Positions 904-29,325 of a DNA stretch of 32,264 bases are shown one piece after another. Where the stretch lies: positions 1-32,264 of the forward strand of contig JAAYTB010000016.1 of NCBI GenBank assembly GCA_012523855.1, read 5' to 3'. Origin of the DNA: Clostridia bacterium. Lineage in GTDB: Bacteria; Bacillota; Clostridia; Clostridiales; Clostridiaceae. The first letter of the stretch is position 1. Each line of letters opens with the position of its first letter. The position numbers were made by a program, and so were the translations under genes. The notes beneath the pieces were generated by a model. That model searched no databases. It had not been told where the DNA came from and saw nothing but the letters and a program-made list of their open reading frames with translations.

Positions 904-3900
904 TTACCTCCATGATTTTCTTAATTTTAACGCCGCTTGTTTAACCTTATCTATTAAAATATATTTAGACTCCTGCAAAGATGAATTGCCTTCCATATGA
1001 GGGTATATATCTAACTCTTGTAGCTTATTACTAAGGGAAACTATAGTAGTTTCTTTATCGCTATAGAATTGGCTGCCTCTGATTCTAATGAAGGTCCAAC
1101 CTAATCGCTCGAGGATTGATTGCCTTACCATATCCTCTTCAAACTTATCTTCTCCATGCCATCTTTCACCATCGCATTCTATAGCAACTTTTTTATCTCC
1201 ATAGATTGCAACCATATCAATTCTATAGGAACCTACCTGCCACTGAGGTACAATTTTATAGCCTTTGTTAATTAAACCTTTCATAACCTCTTTCTCAAAT
1301 TCAGATTCTGCTTTCATTGAAACTTTTTTGTATTCTATGTCCTTACCATGAGGATTCTTAAAATAAGCAATTAGTTCTTTTCTTATATCTCCTGCTTTTA
1401 AATCTTCCTCTGCATCTAAGGAATATACAAGCCAGATTTGATCTTTAGCTCGACTTACCGCAACATTATACCTCTTCTTAAAGAGATCCTCTGGGCCGTA
1501 TCCGTTAAATCTCAATGGTCCTTCTCCCTCATTTGTGTCTACCATGGATAAGAAAATGATATCCCTCTCGTCTCCCTGGAAGTTAGCTGAATTTCCGCAT
1601 AGAATTTCTCTTTTGCTGTATTCTGAAGGCTCCATTCTCTTTTGCAACATCCTATCAATTGCCGTGGCCTGCTTATCACCTCTTAAAGTAATAACTCCTA
1701 TGGTCTTATCCTTGTATTCTTCCTGCTGGCAGCAAGCCAGTATTAAGGAAACTATAGTTTCTGCTTCCTTCTCATTAACTTTATTTTTGGAAATTGCCCC
1801 TTCTACTCTATAAGGAACTAAAGCAGGCTTAACAGTTACTTGGCTATCATCTCTAAGGGGTTTAATCTGTCCATTATATGAAAGGATATTTGAATACTGT
1901 ATAATTTCCGGAACACATCTAAAATGTTCCTTTAATCTAATTGGTTGATATCCTGAAGCTTGTGCCAAGTCATATAAGGAGAACTTACCTGAATAGAGCT
2001 TATCGTTAGGAATATCATATAAATATTCTCTTATTAATCTATCCATATCTTCAGTTCTCTCGCCTATAGATAAGGGACTCACCTGCTCGTTGTCACCGAC
2101 TATTATAGCCTTTTCTCCCAAATATAAAGCCGTTAAAGCCATAACATCAGATTGGCTAGCCTCATCGATAATCACTATATCAAATCTGTTTTCCACAGGA
2201 TTGAAGCTTTCAACTACCTTGTTTAATGGCATTATCCAAACTGGTATAGCTCCTTGGCAACTAGGCATTAACTTTCTAGCCTCTGCCTTATAGAGCTCTG
2301 CTTTTTTACCCTTTCCATTGCCAATCTTTCTAATTAACTGTCTCCAACCTTCAATTGCCTGGACCTGCTTCTTATTATGCTGAAATTTAATCAATTTAGC
2401 TCCCCATGCTTTTTTATAAGCTAGTTCAGCAGTGCTTTTTTTCAAGCTATCTTCAAGTTTGAAGATTTGATTTTGTATATCTTCTAAGGATTGTCTTTTT
2501 CTTTCTATAATTTCTTGTTTAAATTGAATGTACAACCAAGCTTCTTTAATTCCAGTGGGAGGTTTCTCTCTTCCGTGAAGAGAATTTCTATTTTCTATTT
2601 CCTTTGCCCAGTTAGGAGCACTTTCCCTCAAGGTATTCAACAAATCTCTTCTTCTTTTAATAATTTCAGAAAGGCTCTCTAATCTCTCTAGAGCCTCATA
2701 ATACTCTCTATAACTTTCTGGATTTTCCTCTATCAAGGCTTCTCTTAACCCTTTTAGGAAAACACTACTTTGATTGTGAGTAAAGCCATTTAAAAATTTA
2801 TCGTAATCCTCCAACTGTCTTTTTAACTTCCTAAACTTTAGTCTATATATTTCAGACTCTAGCACTTCTATAATTTTATCAGCTAAGAAGTTTTTTATAT
2901 ATTTCAATCTACTATATTTTTCCTTTGATAGGTCCATATTATTATCTATAAGTTCAAGCCTCAAGCCTAAATGCTTAAGCCTTGCTATAAGAGGATTCCA
3001 AAGGTTCTCATACCAATATAAATTTTCTTCGATTATCTTACAATATTTTTTACAAACTAGTTCGAAATCTTCTCCCATATCCCTGCTATTATCAGCTCCT
3101 AAAGGGGCCATTTGTCTATTCCATCTATTTGCTAGTTGTTCCCTAGCTTTATTCAAATCATAGTACTTAAGTAAGGCCTTATATTCATTTAAGTTTTTAG
3201 GAACCCTACCATTTACGATACAGGAATTAATAGTTGTTTTCATTTCAGGATTCAACAAAAGATTCAATCTAGTAATTTTTCCACTAGCTTGAATTTTTTC
3301 AACTATATTCTCTAGCTGTCTTTTTAAATTCACTTTTTCATCAACAACTTTAAATTCAGGATTATATTTAATAAGATCCTCCATGGCCGTTAAACTCAGA
3401 TTGTATACATAGTTAATTTCATCTATTAAATTCAACCAAGCTTCTTTCCTGACCTTCTCCCTGGATGCTTCCATTACTTCTAAGGTCCATTCCTTATCAA
3501 AATTTATACTGGACACCGCTCTTTTTATTTGAGCGATAATAGTTTTCAATTCCTCTATACTATAAGGTTTATACTTTTCAAGCGAATCTACTTCCCAGTA
3601 TTCTGCAAACCTGTATAAGCCTTCTGTGAACTTACCCTTTTCTAATATTATTCTCTCAAATTCAATTGGACTTAACAAATTTTCTAGCTTAGGCCTATTA
3701 TATGAATACTCAATTTCTTCTTCTGATGAAATTAGACTATTAGTCCTATACAGGTCTATTATTTCATCTTCTGTCAAAGGAATACCAACTCCCTGATCTA
3801 CAGGCATAGGTATCCAAGAATTGCTATCTTTATACTGGGATAAATATTTTGCTGCATCAATAGGTTTGTATTCCACACCGTTAACAACTATCGCCCTATA

Positions 3901-5394
3901 CTCATTAAGTCTGGTATTTTTTAATTTTAATTTTAATTCATCTAGCTCTTTGATTTGATTTTTCCTCTTGGTTTCTAAATCTTCAATTTGCTTTTTTAAA
4001 ACCATAGGATTTAGTCTAGATCTTATCTCGTTTATCTCATCTAAGTTTTTCTCCATCTCTTGTCTACTTTCCGTTGAAGATAAAAGACTTAGACACAGAG
4101 ACTGCAAACTGGGATGAACTTTGCTTTTTAAAACTGAAAGAGCCTTTTCGCTAGAGCTAGTTACTAGTATGCTTTTGCCCTGAGCTAAAAAATGCCCTAT
4201 TAAATTAGCTATAGTATGGGTTTTACCTGTGCCTGGAGGACCTTGAACCAACACTGCACTGTTCTTCTCTAAAAACTTTGCTACAGCTAACTGTTCAGCA
4301 TTTGCTTCCTTAGTTAATAAAATTTCTTCATCTATTCCCTTAGGGTTTAATTCCCTAGCTGAAAATATTGTTTCTTTCATCAAGGGCTTCTCTTCTATAA
4401 CTCCTACTACTTCTTTTAAAAAACTAGGGATGTTATTACTAATATTTATATCCCCAATTATAGTGTCTAAAGCTACCCCATACCCTAAGTTTCTTTTACG
4501 TAAAAATAATACTGGTCTTCTGTATATTTGAGGGTACTGCAAGTTATCATGAAGACATTCCTTACTTTCTGCAAAATTACCTCTTGGAGAAAGTGCATTT
4601 GCCATTCTATTAAGAAAGGAATTTGTCTTTTCTAATTCTATGGGACTATAATTGTTTTCTTCGAAATCATTATATATATCTTTTAATAATTCGTTATTAA
4701 CATCTTCAATATAGTATAATACACTACGATAAATCTCTACGCCTTTATCAGAGTAAGTTAACTTAAACTCCGGCACATCAGCGTCAAATTCTAATTTAAC
4801 GTGGTGAAATAGTATAGGATGATCAACATAAACATCTCTTTTATATAAAAGGTTACCATCCCCTAAAATCAGCTCTAATTCTCCTGCTTCCTTTTTAATA
4901 TTTGAATACAGTCCGTAAAAACTGTTAAATAACTCATCTGCTGCTCTAGCTGGAATTTCTTCTTTCAGCCAAGCATTTCTATCTTTTTCCCATTTTATTA
5001 AATCATTAACTCTTTCCTTACTATCTTCAAATTTTTCAATTGTATACTTTTCTGTTTGGTTACTATGATCTCTTTGTAAAATTTTAATTTCTTTTTTTAC
5101 TTTAATTTCACCATAAATATTGTCCCATCCCTTTTCTACCCAATCTATTAAAGAAGAAGGTATTATGGGACAATCAGTTAACACTGGCCTCCCTACTTTT
5201 AAAATTTCTTGACTTCCTTCTTTTTCATCCCTATATATATTGTTAGCAATACACTGATGCCTTGGTATATTATCCAACCATTTTCGCCATACTTGATTGT
5301 TTACATCAGTAATTATTGGATTCTTTATATTATTAAATTGCTTCAAAAAATGAAACAATCGTTTTATTCTTTCTTTAGCATTGGATTTCATCAT
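904..5394 (-). CDS. SF1 (UPF1/COG1112-type) helicase with C-terminal Vsr/DUF559-like nuclease domain, paralogue 1
   Basis: This is a protein of about 1496 aa, predicted cytosolic. Counting from TTG 5430, Walker A GPPGTGKT is at residues 397-404 and Walker B DEAS at 1089-1092. The later SF1 motifs follow: QGDERDIIF (motif V) and NVAVSRAKDQ (motif VI). A long charged, probably coiled insertion of about 650 residues separates Walker A and B. The C-terminal ~120 residues carry a PD-(D/E)XK-like core, RIDMV with D1405 and IECDGERWHG with E1418 and D1420, then LGWTFIRIRG, typical of Vsr/DUF559 endonuclease-like tails. I prefer ATG 5394 (or 5391) because GGTGGTGA lies just upstream, whereas TTG 5430 has no ribosome site. 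Such helicase-nuclease fusions are found among defence and repair candidates; the substrate here is unknown. It is clearly homologous to the protein at 18495-22805. Confidence 0.85.
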   Translation of the reverse strand: MMKSNAKERIKRLFHFLKQFNNIKNPIITDVNNQVWRKWLDNIPRHQCIANNIYRDEKEGSQEILKVGRPVLTDCPIIPSSLIDWVEKGWDNIYGEIKVKKEIKILQRDHSNQTEKYTIEKFEDSKERVNDLIKWEKDRNAWLKEEIPARAADELFNSFYGLYSNIKKEAGELELILGDGNLLYKRDVYVDHPILFHHVKLEFDADVPEFKLTYSDKGVEIYRSVLYYIEDVNNELLKDIYNDFEENNYSPIELEKTNSFLNRMANALSPRGNFAESKECLHDNLQYPQIYRRPVLFLRKRNLGYGVALDTIIGDINISNNIPSFLKEVVGVIEEKPLMKETIFSARELNPKGIDEEILLTKEANAEQLAVAKFLEKNSAVLVQGPPGTGKTHTIANLIGHFLAQGKSILVTSSSEKALSVLKSKVHPSLQSLCLSLLSSTESRQEMEKNLDEINEIRSRLNPMVLKKQIEDLETKRKNQIKELDELKLKLKNTRLNEYRAIVVNGVEYKPIDAAKYLSQYKDSNSWIPMPVDQGVGIPLTEDEIIDLYRTNSLISSEEEIEYSYNRPKLENLLSPIEFERIILEKGKFTEGLYRFAEYWEVDSLEKYKPYSIEELKTIIAQIKRAVSSINFDKEWTLEVMEASREKVRKEAWLNLIDEINYVYNLSLTAMEDLIKYNPEFKVVDEKVNLKRQLENIVEKIQASGKITRLNLLLNPEMKTTINSCIVNGRVPKNLNEYKALLKYYDLNKAREQLANRWNRQMAPLGADNSRDMGEDFELVCKKYCKIIEENLYWYENLWNPLIARLKHLGLRLELIDNNMDLSKEKYSRLKYIKNFLADKIIEVLESEIYRLKFRKLKRQLEDYDKFLNGFTHNQSSVFLKGLREALIEENPESYREYYEALERLESLSEIIKRRRDLLNTLRESAPNWAKEIENRNSLHGREKPPTGIKEAWLYIQFKQEIIERKRQSLEDIQNQIFKLEDSLKKSTAELAYKKAWGAKLIKFQHNKKQVQAIEGWRQLIRKIGNGKGKKAELYKAEARKLMPSCQGAIPVWIMPLNKVVESFNPVENRFDIVIIDEASQSDVMALTALYLGEKAIIVGDNEQVSPLSIGERTEDMDRLIREYLYDIPNDKLYSGKFSLYDLAQASGYQPIRLKEHFRCVPEIIQYSNILSYNGQIKPLRDDSQVTVKPALVPYRVEGAISKNKVNEKEAETIVSLILACCQQEEYKDKTIGVITLRGDKQATAIDRMLQKRMEPSEYSKREILCGNSANFQGDERDIIFLSMVDTNEGEGPLRFNGYGPEDLFKKRYNVAVSRAKDQIWLVYSLDAEEDLKAGDIRKELIAYFKNPHGKDIEYKKVSMKAESEFEKEVMKGLINKGYKIVPQWQVGSYRIDMVAIYGDKKVAIECDGERWHGEDKFEEDMVRQSILERLGWTFIRIRGSQFYSDKETTIVSLSNKLQELDIYPHMEGNSSLQESKYILIDKVKQAALKLRKSWR

Positions 5395-5462
5395 TAGTGT
5401 CACCACCGTTTCTGCACCTAATTCAAGCAAATATTTACTGAAAAATCACATATTTATCATTA

Positions 5463-5888: not shown

Positions 5889-6554
5889 TTAACTACAAGA
5901 CTTAGATCTTCTTCTATCTTTATGTGATTGAATTTCTTTGTCATCATCAGGGCTAAATAAGTTTTTAGCTTCTTCCAAAACAGCTTTGTATTTGCGACTC
6001 TTACTTCCATAAAGTTTTGCTGAAAACATGCTTATTATTGACAAAGCATCTTCTATTAATTCTTCTTCATAGGATTTTTCTTCATCCTCAGTTAATACTA
6101 CAATTTCTACATTATGATATTTACAGATTTCTTTTAACAGTTCGTTACTAAATCGCATTAGTCGATCCTTATAGTTTAAGACTATTCTCTCTAACTTGTT
6201 GCTTTCAATGAGCTTTATAAATTCTAGTAATCCTGCTCTGTTATAATTAAGTCCTGACCCCACATCTTCAATGGTCTTGTATTTCCAGCCCTTTGACGCA
6301 CAATACAATTGCAATATGTGCTTCTGCTTTTCCAAATCAGCCTGGTCCATAGATTTAGGGATTCTAGTATATATGGCTGTGACCTTTTCACAGTTTTTAT
6401 TTCTATTAGCATAGCTTAAGACTGATTCTGTTTCATATCTTCTATGACCGCCGGGGGTCCTTTCAGAAACAACTTTTCCTGCCTTATCCCATTCTCTTAA
6501 AGTAGTAACTGTAACCCCTGCTTCTTTTGCTGCTTTCCCAATTGAAACTTTCAT
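5889..6554 (-). CDS. Orphan IS607-type MerR-HTH/serine-resolvase protein, probably catalytically dead
   Basis: This is a 221-aa protein. Residues 1-48 form a MerR-like helix-turn-helix (SIGKAAKEAGVTVTTLREWD, then TPGGHRRY), as in IS607 TnpA. Residues 57-195 match the serine-resolvase catalytic domain, with LNYKDRLMRF keeping the conserved D-R-x-x-R core. In the active-site motif, normally Y-A-R-V-S, this protein reads Y62-T-R-I-P66: proline stands at the catalytic serine position, with a serine two residues later at 68. No tnpB or recognisable IS ends flank it. It is likely a domesticated DNA-binding protein or a decayed transposase. The start at ATG 6554 is supported by AAGGTGA. The tail of about 25 residues is charged and unlike the family. 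Confidence 0.8.
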   Translation of the reverse strand: MKVSIGKAAKEAGVTVTTLREWDKAGKVVSERTPGGHRRYETESVLSYANRNKNCEKVTAIYTRIPKSMDQADLEKQKHILQLYCASKGWKYKTIEDVGSGLNYNRAGLLEFIKLIESNKLERIVLNYKDRLMRFSNELLKEICKYHNVEIVVLTEDEEKSYEEELIEDALSIISMFSAKLYGSKSRKYKAVLEEAKNLFSPDDDKEIQSHKDRRRSKSCS

Positions 6555-18467: not shown

Positions 18468-18496
18468 AATAAAAGAAGGCTAAGCCTTCTTTTATT
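18468..18496 (-). terminator. Terminator of helicase-nuclease 2
   Basis: A perfect 13-bp stem, AATAAAAGAAGGC / GCCTTCTTTTATT, has a 3-nt loop and overlaps the stop codon of the gene, so it is very close-coupled. Confidence 0.8.
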
Positions 18497-21400
18497 AATC
18501 CTGTATATTATATATTCCCATAGCTTCTTTTATAGTTTCATCAGGATTACGATAAAATTTACTAGCCCGAATTCTTACAAAGTCCCAGCCCATCCTTTCT
18601 AAAGCAGCTTGATATTTTAAATCCTCCTCTATTCTTTCAAGACCTTGGTATTTATCTCCATCACAGAGCACCGCTAGCTTTTTACCAGCTACTTTTACCA
18701 CCATATCTATACGCCAATCCCCTACTGGCCATTGAGGAATAACCTTAAAACCTTTATTTCTCAACATATTTAGCACTTCATTTTCAAATAATGAATTAGT
18801 TTTTCCAGATTGATTATATATTTCTTTATCAAAGGCGTAAGGGCTTTCTGCATGTTTTATTAACTTTAATCTCAAGTCCCCTTCTTGTAAATCCTTTTCT
18901 GGATCCAAAGAGTGGACTATCCACATCTGATCCCTAGCTCTGCTAGCTGCCACATTAAATCGCTTTTTAATAGATTCATGTGGTCCATATCCCATACTTG
19001 TCAAAATTTCACCTTCTTTAGCTGCATTGACCAGTGAAATAAATATAATATCTCTCTCATCACCTTGAAATTGAGCTGGTGTACCACAGAGCAATTTAGT
19101 TCTTTCATAGTCAACTGGTTCAATTGCACCATGGAGCTTGTCTTCGATTAATTTTGCTTGTTCTTCTCCTGCTAAGGATATTACTCCAAAGCTCTTATCC
19201 TTATATTCAGGCTTTGAGATACAGCTTTTAATTAGTGAAACTACTGCCTCCGCTTCTTCTTGATTCGTTCTTTCTGTAGCCATAGAGTTTTTGACCCTGT
19301 AACTTACCAATGAAGGCTTACAACTAACATTGCTATGATCCCTCAAAGGAATTATCCTTCCTTTGTATGATAACTTGTTACTAAATTGTATTATAGGTGC
19401 TACACATCTAAAATGTTCCTTCAAACACACAGGTTTACAACCAGATGTTTTTGCTATGTCATAAATAGATAGCTCAGGAGTATATAAATGTTGGTTAGGA
19501 ATATCCTTCAAATATTTATCTATCAAATCTTCGTAATCCTCGATATCTTCACCTTCTGATAGTGGGCTTACTTGTTCATCATCACCTACAATAACTACTT
19601 GTTTTCCCATATAAAGAACTGCCAGGGCTAAAATATCAGCTTGGCTAGCCTCGTCAATAATTACTACATCGAATTTACTAATTTGAGGATTAAAGTTTTC
19701 CACTACAGTATTTAAAGACATAATCCATGCCGGTACTGCACTTTGACACTCTACCATCAATTCTCTAGCTTTAACTTTCAGAGCCCCTATTCTCTTTCCG
19801 CTACCATTACGAATACTTTTCATTGTAAGTTTCCAGCCTTCCATAGCCTGGATTTGATCTAGAGTAATACTTTGGATTTTCTTTAACCAAGCCTTCTTAT
19901 CCAACAATTCTGCTGTTACCTTCCGAACAGATTCTTCTAAACGGCGAATTTCTTCCTGTATACTTTCTATGCTCACTTCAGCTCTTTTGTCTAGTTCATC
20001 ACTTAATTGCCTCCACTTCCATGCTAACTGTATATCTCCTGGTACATATGTAACTCCGTGGATGCCAAGCCTATCACTTATAGCGTTTGCCCATTCTGGT
20101 GCACTTGTAGATAATTTCTTTATTAATTCTTTTCTCTTTACCTTTATATTTCGGCATTTAATCATGCTCATAATCAACTTATAAGCCCTCTTATACTTGC
20201 TTGCATCTTTGTTATTTACTGCAGTTATAATAAGCTCATTAGCAGCTCCTATGCTGTACTTACTAAGAAGCATTGCCATATTTTTTAAGGTTTCTTCATT
20301 TTTTTCATAGCTTATTCTAACTATTTGTGCTTCTATAATTGGTGTTAATTCATCAGTAACCTTCTTCTTAATGTTTTTTAATAATTCAAATTCCTTATGC
20401 TTTTCCTTATTTTCATTAAAGAAAGTCTCCCACTTGAATCCTAGCCATTCTAGCTGAGTAACTAGTAGTTTCCAACTGTTGTTATACCAAGTTAATCTAG
20501 AATCGATTCGACTAGCATATTGTACCAATTTATATTCGGGAAATGGTCCAAGATCCGAAGTCTTTGGTCCTCCTAAAAAAGCTACAAGTTTATCCCATTT
20601 TTTCAGAACTTGTTTTCTCATTAAATTAATCTCTATTAAATTCATAAGGATAGTGAATTCATCAGGCTTAGTTGGTACCTTTCCTTTAACTTTAATGTTT
20701 GATAATACTTTGTTCCAGACAGGTTTAGTTACAAGCTTAAATTTGCTGATAGTCTTATTGCTTCGAACAAATACTACCATTTCCTTAAGAACCTTCAAAG
20801 TTCTTTCATTATTTAAACTTTCGTGTATATAAGGTTTGTATTCTGACTCATATTTCTTAAACTTAACAGTTTCCTCATAAAGGACTCTAATAGTATAAAT
20901 AAGTTTTTTCCATTCTTCCTTTATAGAATCAGACTTATATCCATCCTCAATTATAGTCATTATCCATGGCTTACTCTCATCTATTACTTCCACAGATTTT
21001 ATTATGTCAACTAGTAATTTATTTAACTCATTTATGTCCTTTCGGGGGTTTTCCCACAAGTCTTTCCTGAAGTCCAACTCCTTATTACTTAAGGATTTTT
21101 GCACTTTAATTAATTCCTCAAACTCTCCAGGATTCATAATTAGGGAAGGATCTGGATATTCGAAATCGCACTCTACTTCAACTTCTTTTGTTAAGATACC
21201 ATTAGACTCATATAGTTCTTTCACTTCCCAAGTATTCAAACTTAATTTATTGCCTAAGCGAACCGGTGAAGGTATCCAATCATTTCCTTCCTTGTTTTCA
21301 GCCACAAATTTAGCTGCTTCTACTGGAGTGAACTCTTCATCTTCAAATTTAATTGGCATATATTCTTTTTCTATTTCATTTTTTAATTGCTCCCTTTTAG

Positions 21401-22805
21401 ACCTTAAAGTAGTAATAAGATTTTTTCTCTCTTCTTCCAATGAATTCACTGCTTCTATTAACAAGGCTTCATTAGTATTATTTCTCCTTTCATTTAGAGC
21501 ATCAATAGATTTCTCTAACTCATGAGATTTACTAACATCCTTTAATACCGGAAGGCATAAGGGTTGTAATTTTTCTTCTATCTTTTCTCTCAATACCTTT
21601 AATGCTTTTTCTGTATGACTTGTTATGAGAACCCTTTTCCCTTGTGATAATAAATGTCCTGTTAAATTTGCTATAGTATGTGTCTTACCAGTTCCAGGAG
21701 GTCCTTGAACAAGGACGGCATCTCTATGTTCTAACAGCTTGGCCACCAAGATCTGCTCAGCATTAGCAGGTTTAGCATATAGTATATCTTCATCATCTAT
21801 ACTTAGGGCTAATTCAGCATCATCTTGACTACTCAGCTTATCAAGAGCCAGATCTCCTTGTGCCCCTGCAATACGCTTTAAAAATCTAGGTATATTATCG
21901 TTATAGTCTATATCGTTTAAAATGGATTCTATTGCTATGTTAAAGCCTGTATCTTTTTTTCTGATAAAGAGCAAGTGCTCCCTAATAATAGCTAATTCAA
22001 AATTATCAGTTTCATGGTCATTTTCTTTTGAAAAATATCCTTTCGGAGATAGGGCTTTGCAAAGCCTTCTAAGAAAATCATCTGTATTTTCTTCATCTAT
22101 TATAGAATAATGCTTTTCCTCTAATTCCTTAATGCAATCAGCCATGGCATGGGAATCCATATCTACCACTCCTGTCCAAAGAGTAGAGCACAACTCTACA
22201 TCATCATGACTTAAGCTTAAGGTAAATTCTCCTTCTTTTGAATTCAACTTCAAGTCTACTTTTTGAATTAATACTGGATGATTAATTTCTTTTCCTTCCT
22301 TAGTGGTATATTTCAAAATACCGTCCCCTATCACTAATTCAATAAGCTCAGACTCCTTATCTACTTCTGAATATATTTTATACAATTCCTTAAATACCTT
22401 CATAGCTTGCCTGGCAGATCTTTCTCTTTCCAGCCACTGATTTCTTTTTTCTTCCCATATACTAAACATATCCAAAAGACTATTATCATCTGTAACGATT
22501 TCAACCTTTTCATCTAGGTTGTTCCAATTACCTCTGATACATGTTATCAAATCTTCTGGAGGACTTGGACACTCCTTTACTAGAGGTTTTTTTACTCTAA
22601 GGAGGTCATCCTTATCTTCTGAACTATCAATATTCTTATTCTTCCTTAGAACATTAAGGCACTGAATAGATTCATGCTCTGGCAAGTCCTTAAAAGATCT
22701 CTTCCACTTATAGTTGTTCGTGTTAAAAATAACAGGATTTTTCAACTCATTAAGAGCTTTAGCATAATTAAATATTTGATATAAAGCTTTTTTATAATCT
22801 TCCAT
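18495..22805 (-). CDS. SF1 (UPF1/COG1112-type) helicase with C-terminal Vsr/DUF559-like domain, paralogue 2
   Basis: This 1436-aa protein is a clear paralogue of the one at 904-5394. The order is the same: N-terminal region of about 360 aa, Walker A GPPGTGKT (368-375), long charged middle, Walker B DEAS (about 1051), QGDERDIIF, NVAASRARDQ, then the C-terminal nuclease-like tail. In the tail RIDMV is kept, but the motif that is IECDGERWHG in paralogue 1 reads VLCDGDKYQG here, so the glutamate is leucine (L1380) while D1382 remains. The nuclease may be inactive or altered. I choose ATG 22805 because GAGGAG lies 9 bp before it; the longer reading from 22829 overlaps that site. It probably acts on nucleic acid in the cytosol. 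Confidence 0.85.
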   Translation of the reverse strand: MEDYKKALYQIFNYAKALNELKNPVIFNTNNYKWKRSFKDLPEHESIQCLNVLRKNKNIDSSEDKDDLLRVKKPLVKECPSPPEDLITCIRGNWNNLDEKVEIVTDDNSLLDMFSIWEEKRNQWLERERSARQAMKVFKELYKIYSEVDKESELIELVIGDGILKYTTKEGKEINHPVLIQKVDLKLNSKEGEFTLSLSHDDVELCSTLWTGVVDMDSHAMADCIKELEEKHYSIIDEENTDDFLRRLCKALSPKGYFSKENDHETDNFELAIIREHLLFIRKKDTGFNIAIESILNDIDYNDNIPRFLKRIAGAQGDLALDKLSSQDDAELALSIDDEDILYAKPANAEQILVAKLLEHRDAVLVQGPPGTGKTHTIANLTGHLLSQGKRVLITSHTEKALKVLREKIEEKLQPLCLPVLKDVSKSHELEKSIDALNERRNNTNEALLIEAVNSLEEERKNLITTLRSKREQLKNEIEKEYMPIKFEDEEFTPVEAAKFVAENKEGNDWIPSPVRLGNKLSLNTWEVKELYESNGILTKEVEVECDFEYPDPSLIMNPGEFEELIKVQKSLSNKELDFRKDLWENPRKDINELNKLLVDIIKSVEVIDESKPWIMTIIEDGYKSDSIKEEWKKLIYTIRVLYEETVKFKKYESEYKPYIHESLNNERTLKVLKEMVVFVRSNKTISKFKLVTKPVWNKVLSNIKVKGKVPTKPDEFTILMNLIEINLMRKQVLKKWDKLVAFLGGPKTSDLGPFPEYKLVQYASRIDSRLTWYNNSWKLLVTQLEWLGFKWETFFNENKEKHKEFELLKNIKKKVTDELTPIIEAQIVRISYEKNEETLKNMAMLLSKYSIGAANELIITAVNNKDASKYKRAYKLIMSMIKCRNIKVKRKELIKKLSTSAPEWANAISDRLGIHGVTYVPGDIQLAWKWRQLSDELDKRAEVSIESIQEEIRRLEESVRKVTAELLDKKAWLKKIQSITLDQIQAMEGWKLTMKSIRNGSGKRIGALKVKARELMVECQSAVPAWIMSLNTVVENFNPQISKFDVVIIDEASQADILALAVLYMGKQVVIVGDDEQVSPLSEGEDIEDYEDLIDKYLKDIPNQHLYTPELSIYDIAKTSGCKPVCLKEHFRCVAPIIQFSNKLSYKGRIIPLRDHSNVSCKPSLVSYRVKNSMATERTNQEEAEAVVSLIKSCISKPEYKDKSFGVISLAGEEQAKLIEDKLHGAIEPVDYERTKLLCGTPAQFQGDERDIIFISLVNAAKEGEILTSMGYGPHESIKKRFNVAASRARDQMWIVHSLDPEKDLQEGDLRLKLIKHAESPYAFDKEIYNQSGKTNSLFENEVLNMLRNKGFKVIPQWPVGDWRIDMVVKVAGKKLAVLCDGDKYQGLERIEEDLKYQAALERMGWDFVRIRASKFYRNPDETIKEAMGIYNIQD

Positions 22806-22877
22806 TGTATTACTCTCCTCAAACATCATTTGACTTTTTCTTAATACCTTTTCATTTGGTATATCTATCTATAGTAA

Positions 22878-27559: not shown

Positions 27560-28495
27560 TTAATCATTAAACCTATGCTCAGACCAATCATGATTAAATT
27601 TAAATAGCTTTGAAGGTCTATGGCCTGCATCTTTGGTAAATTCATCGGTTTCAATTACCATACCTGAAATTTTTCTTCGGAAATTTGCCTTTAGCAGCTC
27701 CTTATCTAATATAAGCTCATATACCTGCTGAAGCTCTGTTAAAGTAAAAAGCTCTGGCATTAGATTAAAGGCAATATCTGAATATGCTATCTTATTTCGC
27801 AGTCTTTCAATTCCATATTCAATTATTTTTCCATGATCAAAAGCAATTCCCTTGGATTCAACTACTGTCCTATCTATTGTCCAAACCTTCCCTTCCACAG
27901 TTTTTATAACCTTAATTACTGCAGATATCTCCTTTTCTTCTACCTCCTGGTTGGACAGAATCAACTTATAGATTTTTTCTAAAATATAACCCATCTCTGT
28001 TACAGTTTTCTTTTCATCCATAAGCTTGCAGTTTACAGCAAACCATTTTGCATCCTCTGCATCGTGGCTAGCCTTTATATTTAAGCTTGAACTATCTATT
28101 AAAGACATGTAGGACACGCTTATAACTCTTGTTCTTGGATCCCTATCTACTTTTCCCCAAGAAAAAAGTTGTTCTATGTATACATTATCTATGTTTGTCT
28201 CTTCCTTCAACTCCCTTAAGGCCGCCTCTTCCAGACTTTCCTTTTCTCTTACGAAACCTCCTGGCAAAGCCCATTGCCCAATGTAAGGGTGGTCTCCCCT
28301 CTTAACCATTAAAAGCCTTAGCTCTTTATCAGGTAATTTTCTATAATTTTTGTTTTCTTGATCTGTTACAGTAAAAATCAGCATGTCTACAGTTACAGAA
28401 GGTCTATCATATTTACTTGGGTCATAGCTAGCTAGAAATTCTTCTTCAGTAAGTCCATTTTTATTTGTAACTTTGGAATTTATCAAATTAATCAC
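27560..28495 (-). CDS. Nudix-domain protein with winged-helix C-terminus (NrtR-like regulator or hydrolase)
   Basis: This is a 311-aa protein. A Nudix domain covers about residues 30-175, with Nudix box residues at 80-102 (G80, E86, REL 94-96, EE 98-99); the consensus glycine near the end is asparagine. The second half (about 220-305) is the winged-helix region seen in NrtR-family proteins (IAYSDIAFNLMPELFTLTEL, later GHRPSKLFKF). NrtR proteins sense ADP-ribose and repress NAD genes; whether this one hydrolyses, represses or both is not known. The start GTG 28495 lacks a good ribosome site, and a TTG three codons on (28486) has GGTGAT before it. A palindrome covers its predicted start site. 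Confidence 0.85.
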   Translation of the reverse strand: MINLINSKVTNKNGLTEEEFLASYDPSKYDRPSVTVDMLIFTVTDQENKNYRKLPDKELRLLMVKRGDHPYIGQWALPGGFVREKESLEEAALRELKEETNIDNVYIEQLFSWGKVDRDPRTRVISVSYMSLIDSSSLNIKASHDAEDAKWFAVNCKLMDEKKTVTEMGYILEKIYKLILSNQEVEEKEISAVIKVIKTVEGKVWTIDRTVVESKGIAFDHGKIIEYGIERLRNKIAYSDIAFNLMPELFTLTELQQVYELILDKELLKANFRRKISGMVIETDEFTKDAGHRPSKLFKFNHDWSEHRFND

Positions 28496-28503
28496 CTACA
28501 TTC

Positions 28504-28528
28504 TGATATTTTCACCTTGAAAATATCA
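28504..28528 (-). promoter_or_regulatory. Perfect palindrome, predicted operator of the Nudix-wHTH gene
   Basis: Arms of 11 bp, TGATATTTTCA (28504-28514) and TGAAAATATCA (28518-28528), have a 3-bp spacer. It starts in the last base of the -10 and covers the expected transcript start, a position where a bound repressor would block transcription. The NrtR-like protein encoded directly downstream is the obvious candidate binder. This is inference; the palindrome itself is seen directly. Confidence 0.75.
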
Positions 28529-28556
28529 TTATAGAACTATATCGTCAATCTGTCAA
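28528..28556 (-). promoter_or_regulatory. Consensus sigma-A promoter of the Nudix-wHTH gene
   Basis: On the minus strand the promoter is TTGACA (28551-28556), exactly 17 bp, then TATAAT (28528-28533): a full consensus, the strongest promoter in the window by match. Confidence 0.9.
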
Positions 28557-28638: not shown

Positions 28639-29133
28639 TTACTTTTTCTTGCAGCAAGAATCAATTTTACATTCACAATCCCAATCGTCATCCCAGTATT
28701 CGTATTTTGGGTCTTCGAAATAGGGTTCTACGCGAATTACTGATTCAACCATAACGCATCTGCTATTTAGCTTCTTCATAAAACATTTATCAGCATAAAC
28801 GTCTAAATCACAAAGCTCCATAAAGCATCCGCAGAATTCTACAGTCTTTACAAAAGGTACTACGAAAGTTTCCTTAAAGATCTTATTGCAACCACATTTA
28901 TCATTTGAGCAATATTTTATTTTGATATATTTGCAACCTTTAATAACTATTTTGAAACCATCGCAATGTTTAATAACCTTTTTATCCTTAACCTCTACTT
29001 TAACACTACCTTCAAGCAATGCTGTAATACAAGGTTTTGGATAACCTATACAAACCTTATCAACTTCTTTAAACTTTGAGAAGAAATCTTTTTCTTTTTC
29101 GTCGAAGCAATTATCATATCTACAACCCTGCAT
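28639..29133 (-). CDS. Cysteine-rich SPOCS/DUF3794-like protein, probably spore surface
   Basis: This 164-aa protein has 18 cysteines (11 percent). The pattern of beta-strand stretches from about residue 28 to 135, with FKETFVVPFVKTVEF near the middle and LNSRCVMVESVIRVEPYF at the end, recalls the SPOCS (DUF3794) domain of spore coat and sporulation proteins; the match is by eye. An acidic and aromatic stretch precedes a CCKKK end. I take ATG 29133, since GAGGAGGT lies 5 bp before it and an upstream ATG overlaps that site. A role in the disulfide-linked spore coat or exosporium is inferred. Confidence 0.65.
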   Translation of the reverse strand: MQGCRYDNCFDEKEKDFFSKFKEVDKVCIGYPKPCITALLEGSVKVEVKDKKVIKHCDGFKIVIKGCKYIKIKYCSNDKCGCNKIFKETFVVPFVKTVEFCGCFMELCDLDVYADKCFMKKLNSRCVMVESVIRVEPYFEDPKYEYWDDDWDCECKIDSCCKKK

Positions 29134-29325
29134 ATTATACCTCCTCATTACTAGTTTATACTATATAATATTCATAAAACTACAGAATGTTACATTAAGC
29201 GACTTATTTCAATAATTAATTTGTAAGCTTATTTTTTAAAATAGGCTTCTCTTAAAATTTTTCTGCATAAAAATATGAACTAATGGAAAACTCTAAATAT
29301 ATCTATTATTTTTTGAGGTGATTTT

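Follow-up and report, generated by a model that had tools for sequence, protein, structure and literature searches.

The regulator of NAD genes commonly described for clostridia is NiaR (PMC6800001), a niacin-responsive 3H domain protein that acts on such genes in Bacillus and Clostridium. NrtR proteins belong to an unrelated family, and autorepression and release from DNA by ADP-ribose have been established for members other than the one considered here (PMC6800001; PMC4666351). In SoNrtR (3gz5/3gz6/3gz8) a Nudix domain is joined to the NrtR winged helix. The B. thetaiotaomicron AraR (5bs6) shares the fold and, in many genomes, tandem semipalindromic sites 3 bp apart (PMC4666351), but its ligand is L-arabinose and its targets are ara genes, whereas the clostridial sites described below lie at NAD-salvage genes. 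Streptococcus sobrinus SsNrtR controls pncB and pnuC-nadR, with an inverted domain order (winged helix N-terminal) and a degenerate Nudix motif (PMC12735969). Impaired Nudix signatures are usual in published NrtR and AraR proteins (PMC4666351; PMC12735969). The E. faecalis MutT/nudix protein 2fml has the same two-domain layout, and its deposition title assigns no regulatory function.

We analysed a 32,264-nucleotide stretch of a Clostridia bacterium contig (the window), which carries on its minus strand an nrtR-family gene of 308 amino acids (27560..28486), recognized by domain, profile and fold searches. The preliminary description of this DNA had read the product as a Nudix plus winged-helix protein, and Pfam matches both domains: PF00293 at residues 54-152 (1.5e-18) and NrtR_WHD, PF21906, at residues 239-297 (1.8e-22, full profile covered), with AraR_C scoring below the latter (7.7e-9). 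Against NCBIfam NF050029 (NtrR equivalog) the protein reaches 181.7 bits, the curated cut-off being 400, which makes it homologous yet places it outside this equivalog. Its nearest solved sequences are AraR, SoNrtR and 2fml. With a structure model of the protein (pLDDT 87.7) as query, Foldseek returned 2fml as the best structural match (E 2.5e-20; 28% identity), then AraR 5bs6 (3e-19) and SoNrtR 3gz6 (5e-15), though overall rmsd to the solved folds is high owing to domain orientation and an insert. The product divides into a Nudix domain (~29-152), a beta-rich insert (~153-212) and a C-terminal NrtR winged helix (~235-299), and the model places four long strands (~143-212) between Nudix core and winged helix. 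The protein resembles SoNrtR in domain composition and in its predicted targets, its own gene and NAD-salvage genes; identity to SoNrtR is ~28% over the aligned fold, the operator sequence is different, and the window protein is further set apart by the ~60-residue beta-rich insert before the winged helix and by intact Nudix catalytic glutamates. The Nudix signature GX5EX7REUXEEXGU is matched except for a Gly to Asn change. The window protein and 21 other rows of a 32-row alignment retain the catalytic glutamates, which are lost in the 80%-identical sister (L009) and in the L049-L052 clade; catalysis is therefore not under strict selection. Two genomes, G007 and G076, hold a distant second NrtR paralogue (L145 on G007:C26 and L146 on G076:C14, with 45-46% identity to the window protein) in addition to a close homologue.

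The gene is preceded on the minus strand by a -35 element TTGACA (28551..28556) and, after a 17-bp spacer, a -10 element TATAAT (28528..28533), both kept at the same place in homologues. In the 2.41-Mb genome the exact TTGACA-N17-TATAAT arrangement was counted 25 times and a reversed control twice. The minus-strand letters directly after TATAAT (28533-28528) are GATATTTTCAAGGTGAAAATATCA. The abutting palindrome that had been reported here lies exactly where it was placed, at 28504-28528, with two 11-bp arms around a 3-bp centre and zero mismatches, its first base being the last base of the -10 (28528; overlap of 1 base). From its sequence and conservation we treat this strandless element, TGATATTTTCA-AGG-TGAAAATATCA in minus-strand reading, as a putative operator. 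Judging by the -10 position, transcription is predicted to start ~7 nt past that element, near 28521, inside the palindrome. The likeliest start codon is TTG at 28486, where the sister has GTG at the homologous place; a ribosome-binding site AGGTG (28493..28497, minus strand) lies 6 nt 5′ of it, with a counterpart at the homologous position in the sister, and the mechanical ORF start is GTG at 28495. Inverted repeats with 11-bp arms and loops of at most 10 number 17 in the window, many of them probably terminators, against 0.5 expected from first-order Markov shuffles, so the palindrome alone proves nothing; it is the recurrence of the element at this position 5′ of homologues that lifts it above chance as a candidate operator.

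An operator of this kind is present 5′ of 22 aligned homologues, with the consensus ATAATGATATTAACAAAATGATAATATCA, 7 invariant columns and 12 nearly invariant ones. In 21 of the 22 sites its first base is also the final base of the -10, and a TTGACA-like -35 is present with a spacing of 16-18 bp. As far as aligned promoters can speak to it, this conservation supports the self-regulation by an NrtR-like protein that had been proposed. The expectation that the palindrome would recur upstream of orthologues was borne out for the site and not, in general, for its symmetry: most copies are an imperfect repeat or dyad, arm mismatches range from 0 to 6 across homologues, and perfect arms are limited to the window and its sister. 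The usual form is TGATANTANCA-N3-TGATANTANCA, whose two 11-mers fit direct repeats with a 14-bp pitch equally well or better. Among distant homologues of the prs-operon clade the centre is retained as TATCA-N3-TGATA. The shared element is therefore a central dyad, (T-A-n-C-A)-N3-(T-G-A-T-A), which turned into TTTCA-N3-TGAAA in the window lineage, a symmetric divergence from the clade consensus TAACA-N3-TGATA. When 147 relatives were searched for the consensus with up to one mismatch allowed, matches turned up in 6 of the 12 genomes that have a close homologue and in 9 of the remaining 135 (Fisher P 2.6e-4). Matches in the NrtR-less genomes G012, G013, G026, G031, G057, G062 and G066 lie before or inside non-NAD genes and were taken as chance; the match in G038 was exempted from this reading. 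Tandem operator repeats with a 14-bp pitch were also observed, three at an nrtR promoter (L015, 5948-5986) and a longer array at the prs promoter of G076 (L132, 7631-7683), an arrangement that suggests side-by-side binding of several dimers.

Most homologues adjoin pncA, pncB, prs, nadV, nadE or pnuC-nadR. Within the nearest clade, an isochorismatase-family pncA and pncB, a nicotinate phosphoribosyltransferase gene, come after the regulator (pncA/pncB neighbours in L010, L012-L016 and L018), and each of the 18 more distant homologues examined has pncA, pncB, prs, nadV or nadE no more than 1.5 kb away. The order nrtR-pnuC-nadR-pncA in G127 may be compared with the targets of SsNrtR. No NAD gene adjoins the regulator in the window or its sister. 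Its convergent neighbour in the window is an Fe-ADH gene, which was rejected as a target on account of that orientation and of its occurrence beside the regulator solely in the sister, plus at a distance in L015. Directly upstream of nrtR lies the gene of a cysteine-rich 169-aa protein without a Pfam family (28639-29148, minus strand), conserved in the sister.

A genome search for further copies of the palindrome, as the preliminary description had proposed, gave no exact copy and one good site. The 25-mer is unique to the window in its own genome with up to 3 mismatches allowed, because other sites follow the clade consensus; a search with that consensus found C72:20317-20341, on another contig, with 2 mismatches. 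Sequence model R1, from whose training the C72 site was absent, scores the window site at E 4.4e-5, the C72 site at 8.7e-4 and the next distinct place in the genome at 0.29. The C72 site lies 4 bp away from the -10 of a TTGACA-N17-TATTAT promoter that precedes a four-gene operon, prs-pncA-nadV-nadE, whose products are a PRPP-synthetase-like protein, an isochorismatase/nicotinamidase-like protein, a nicotinamide phosphoribosyltransferase (E 2e-180 against solved NAMPT) and an NAD synthase. This site keeps the consensus centre; its left half is degenerate and its self-complementarity poor. As the window centre has diverged and the C72 centre matches the consensus, the two sites need not be bound with equal affinity. 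No operator was detectable at the second, canonical pncB of the same genome.

The operator also stands before the same prs operon in G002, G047 and G086, as does the longer array in G076. All 19 genomes with a prs of this kind carry an NrtR homologue, there being 41 carriers among the 147, and none of the 147 has the prs operon without one; the hypergeometric P of 7e-13 for this co-occurrence assumes independence and is inflated by phylogenetic relatedness. In two Acetivibrio species nrtR is unlinked and a site lies 5′ of pncA-pncB, and G047 likewise has an in-trans NAD-salvage target. The suggestion that effector and targets might differ from those of classical NrtR is not supported, in view of the C72 operon, the pncA/pncB operons of the nearest homologues and the NAD genes close to all 18 of the more distant ones examined.

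With a copy of the palindrome at NAD-recycling genes elsewhere in the genome, the protein is best read as a conventional NAD regulator whose operon is unlinked. The analysis establishes the protein family, the promoter, the conservation and genome-wide placement of operators and the identity of the genes behind them; from these we infer binding, repression and effector, and hold with high confidence that it is an NAD-salvage regulator of the NrtR family, with autorepression, in-trans control of the C72 operon and ADP-ribose as inducer. Counting against this reading are the diverged centre of the window operator, the degenerate left half of the C72 site and the full set of catalytic glutamates, in which the protein differs from many characterised NrtR proteins. 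A regulator dimer would bind the 25-bp operator of its own gene, covering the last part of the -10 together with the predicted transcription start, and would block RNA polymerase there, and the same regulator would act in trans at the prs-pncA-nadV-nadE promoter; recycling of nicotinamide and nicotinate into NAD would be turned down when NAD suffices. ADP-ribose, a breakdown product of NAD, would accumulate, bind the Nudix domain and release the repressor from DNA. By analogy with other NrtR proteins, ADP-ribose in the Nudix domain is most likely the inducer, and the operator position over the -10 and start supports repression as the sign of control. We think it unlikely that the protein works as an activator, or that as a repressor it is inactivated by some ligand besides ADP-ribose: Corynebacterium NdnR does respond to NAD (PMC4666351) and the effector of the window protein is not readable from its sequence, but an operator over the -10 and start of near-consensus promoters fits repression, not activation. 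An extended version of NAD-salvage repression, rather improbable in our estimate, would have a Nudix repressor with a working catalytic site break down ADP-ribose, its inducer, by hydrolysis and thereby reset the switch, with a tandem-operator regulon in relatives that reaches the SPFH pair and J-domain cluster described below; hydrolysis by the regulator is conceivable because its catalytic glutamates are intact.

A tree built from 41 homologues puts the window protein and its sister in the pncA-pncB clade (support 95/93), whereas the NrtR found in most prs operons belongs to another branch. It would thus seem that in the window lineage an NrtR of pncAB type has become unlinked and is paired with a prs-type operon, and NrtR can separate from its operon yet retain that target via the operator. 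Loss of NAD control in this lineage, in favour of another ligand and regulon as in Bacteroides AraR/XylR, would fit the lack of NAD genes beside the regulator in window and sister, the convergent Fe-ADH gene, the symmetric divergence of the window operator and the existence of pentose-sensing family members (PMC4666351). We nevertheless judge such a loss very unlikely, given that the genome has a single further good operator, which lies at the NAD-salvage operon and is kept there in G002, G047 and G086, that in-trans salvage targets recur in Acetivibrio and G047, and that the protein is 70-74% identical to members encoded within pncA-pncB operons; a sugar (arabinose) regulator was rejected on the position of that operator. 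That the palindrome is a 5′-leader RNA hairpin or a chance occurrence, as its perfect 11-bp arms and the other inverted repeats of the window might suggest, is scarcely credible, as homologues keep the sequence and not the complementarity, the C72 copy pairs poorly with itself, and a predicted start inside the left arm means that the transcript would lack most of that arm.

Read as an NAD-salvage repressor, an orphan regulator gains a concrete and testable regulon in a clostridium, namely nicotinamide salvage through prs-pncA-nadV-nadE, in a genome that carries both NrtR and NiaR-type genes (the latter on C103, separate from the window gene product). The operator motif, shared across the clade, offers a means of annotating NAD regulation in the genomes of relatives. 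Specialist databases may already list the clostridial NrtR motif. The special interest that remains is modest: the intact Nudix active site, the tandem operators and, in relatives, genes that may be further members of the regulon.

Several observations concern such relatives. An NrtR-type operator precedes a Band_7/SPFH gene and a partner of ~311 aa without a Pfam family at L135 (G019:C7, 3254-5299) and L137 (G038:C188, 7000-9557), the two proteins being 60% and 56% identical between these genomes. In G038, where no NrtR homologue was detected, the pair follows pncA in one apparent operon. The pair may form an extra arm of the NAD regulon. A perfect double operator was found at L133 (G007:C14, 2825-7934), at the promoter of a gene cluster whose products are J-domain-like, a 308-aa protein of no family, adenylosuccinate-synthetase-like and amine-oxidase-like.

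Elsewhere in the window, two very long proteins of 1508 and 1444 aa (904-5430 and 18495-22829, minus strand) look similar to each other; they carry helicase-like GPPGTGKTHTIANL motifs, and their C-terminus is restriction-like. The product of 5889-6554 (minus strand) combines an N-terminal helix-turn-helix with a resolvase-like core and resembles IS607-type transposition resolvases.
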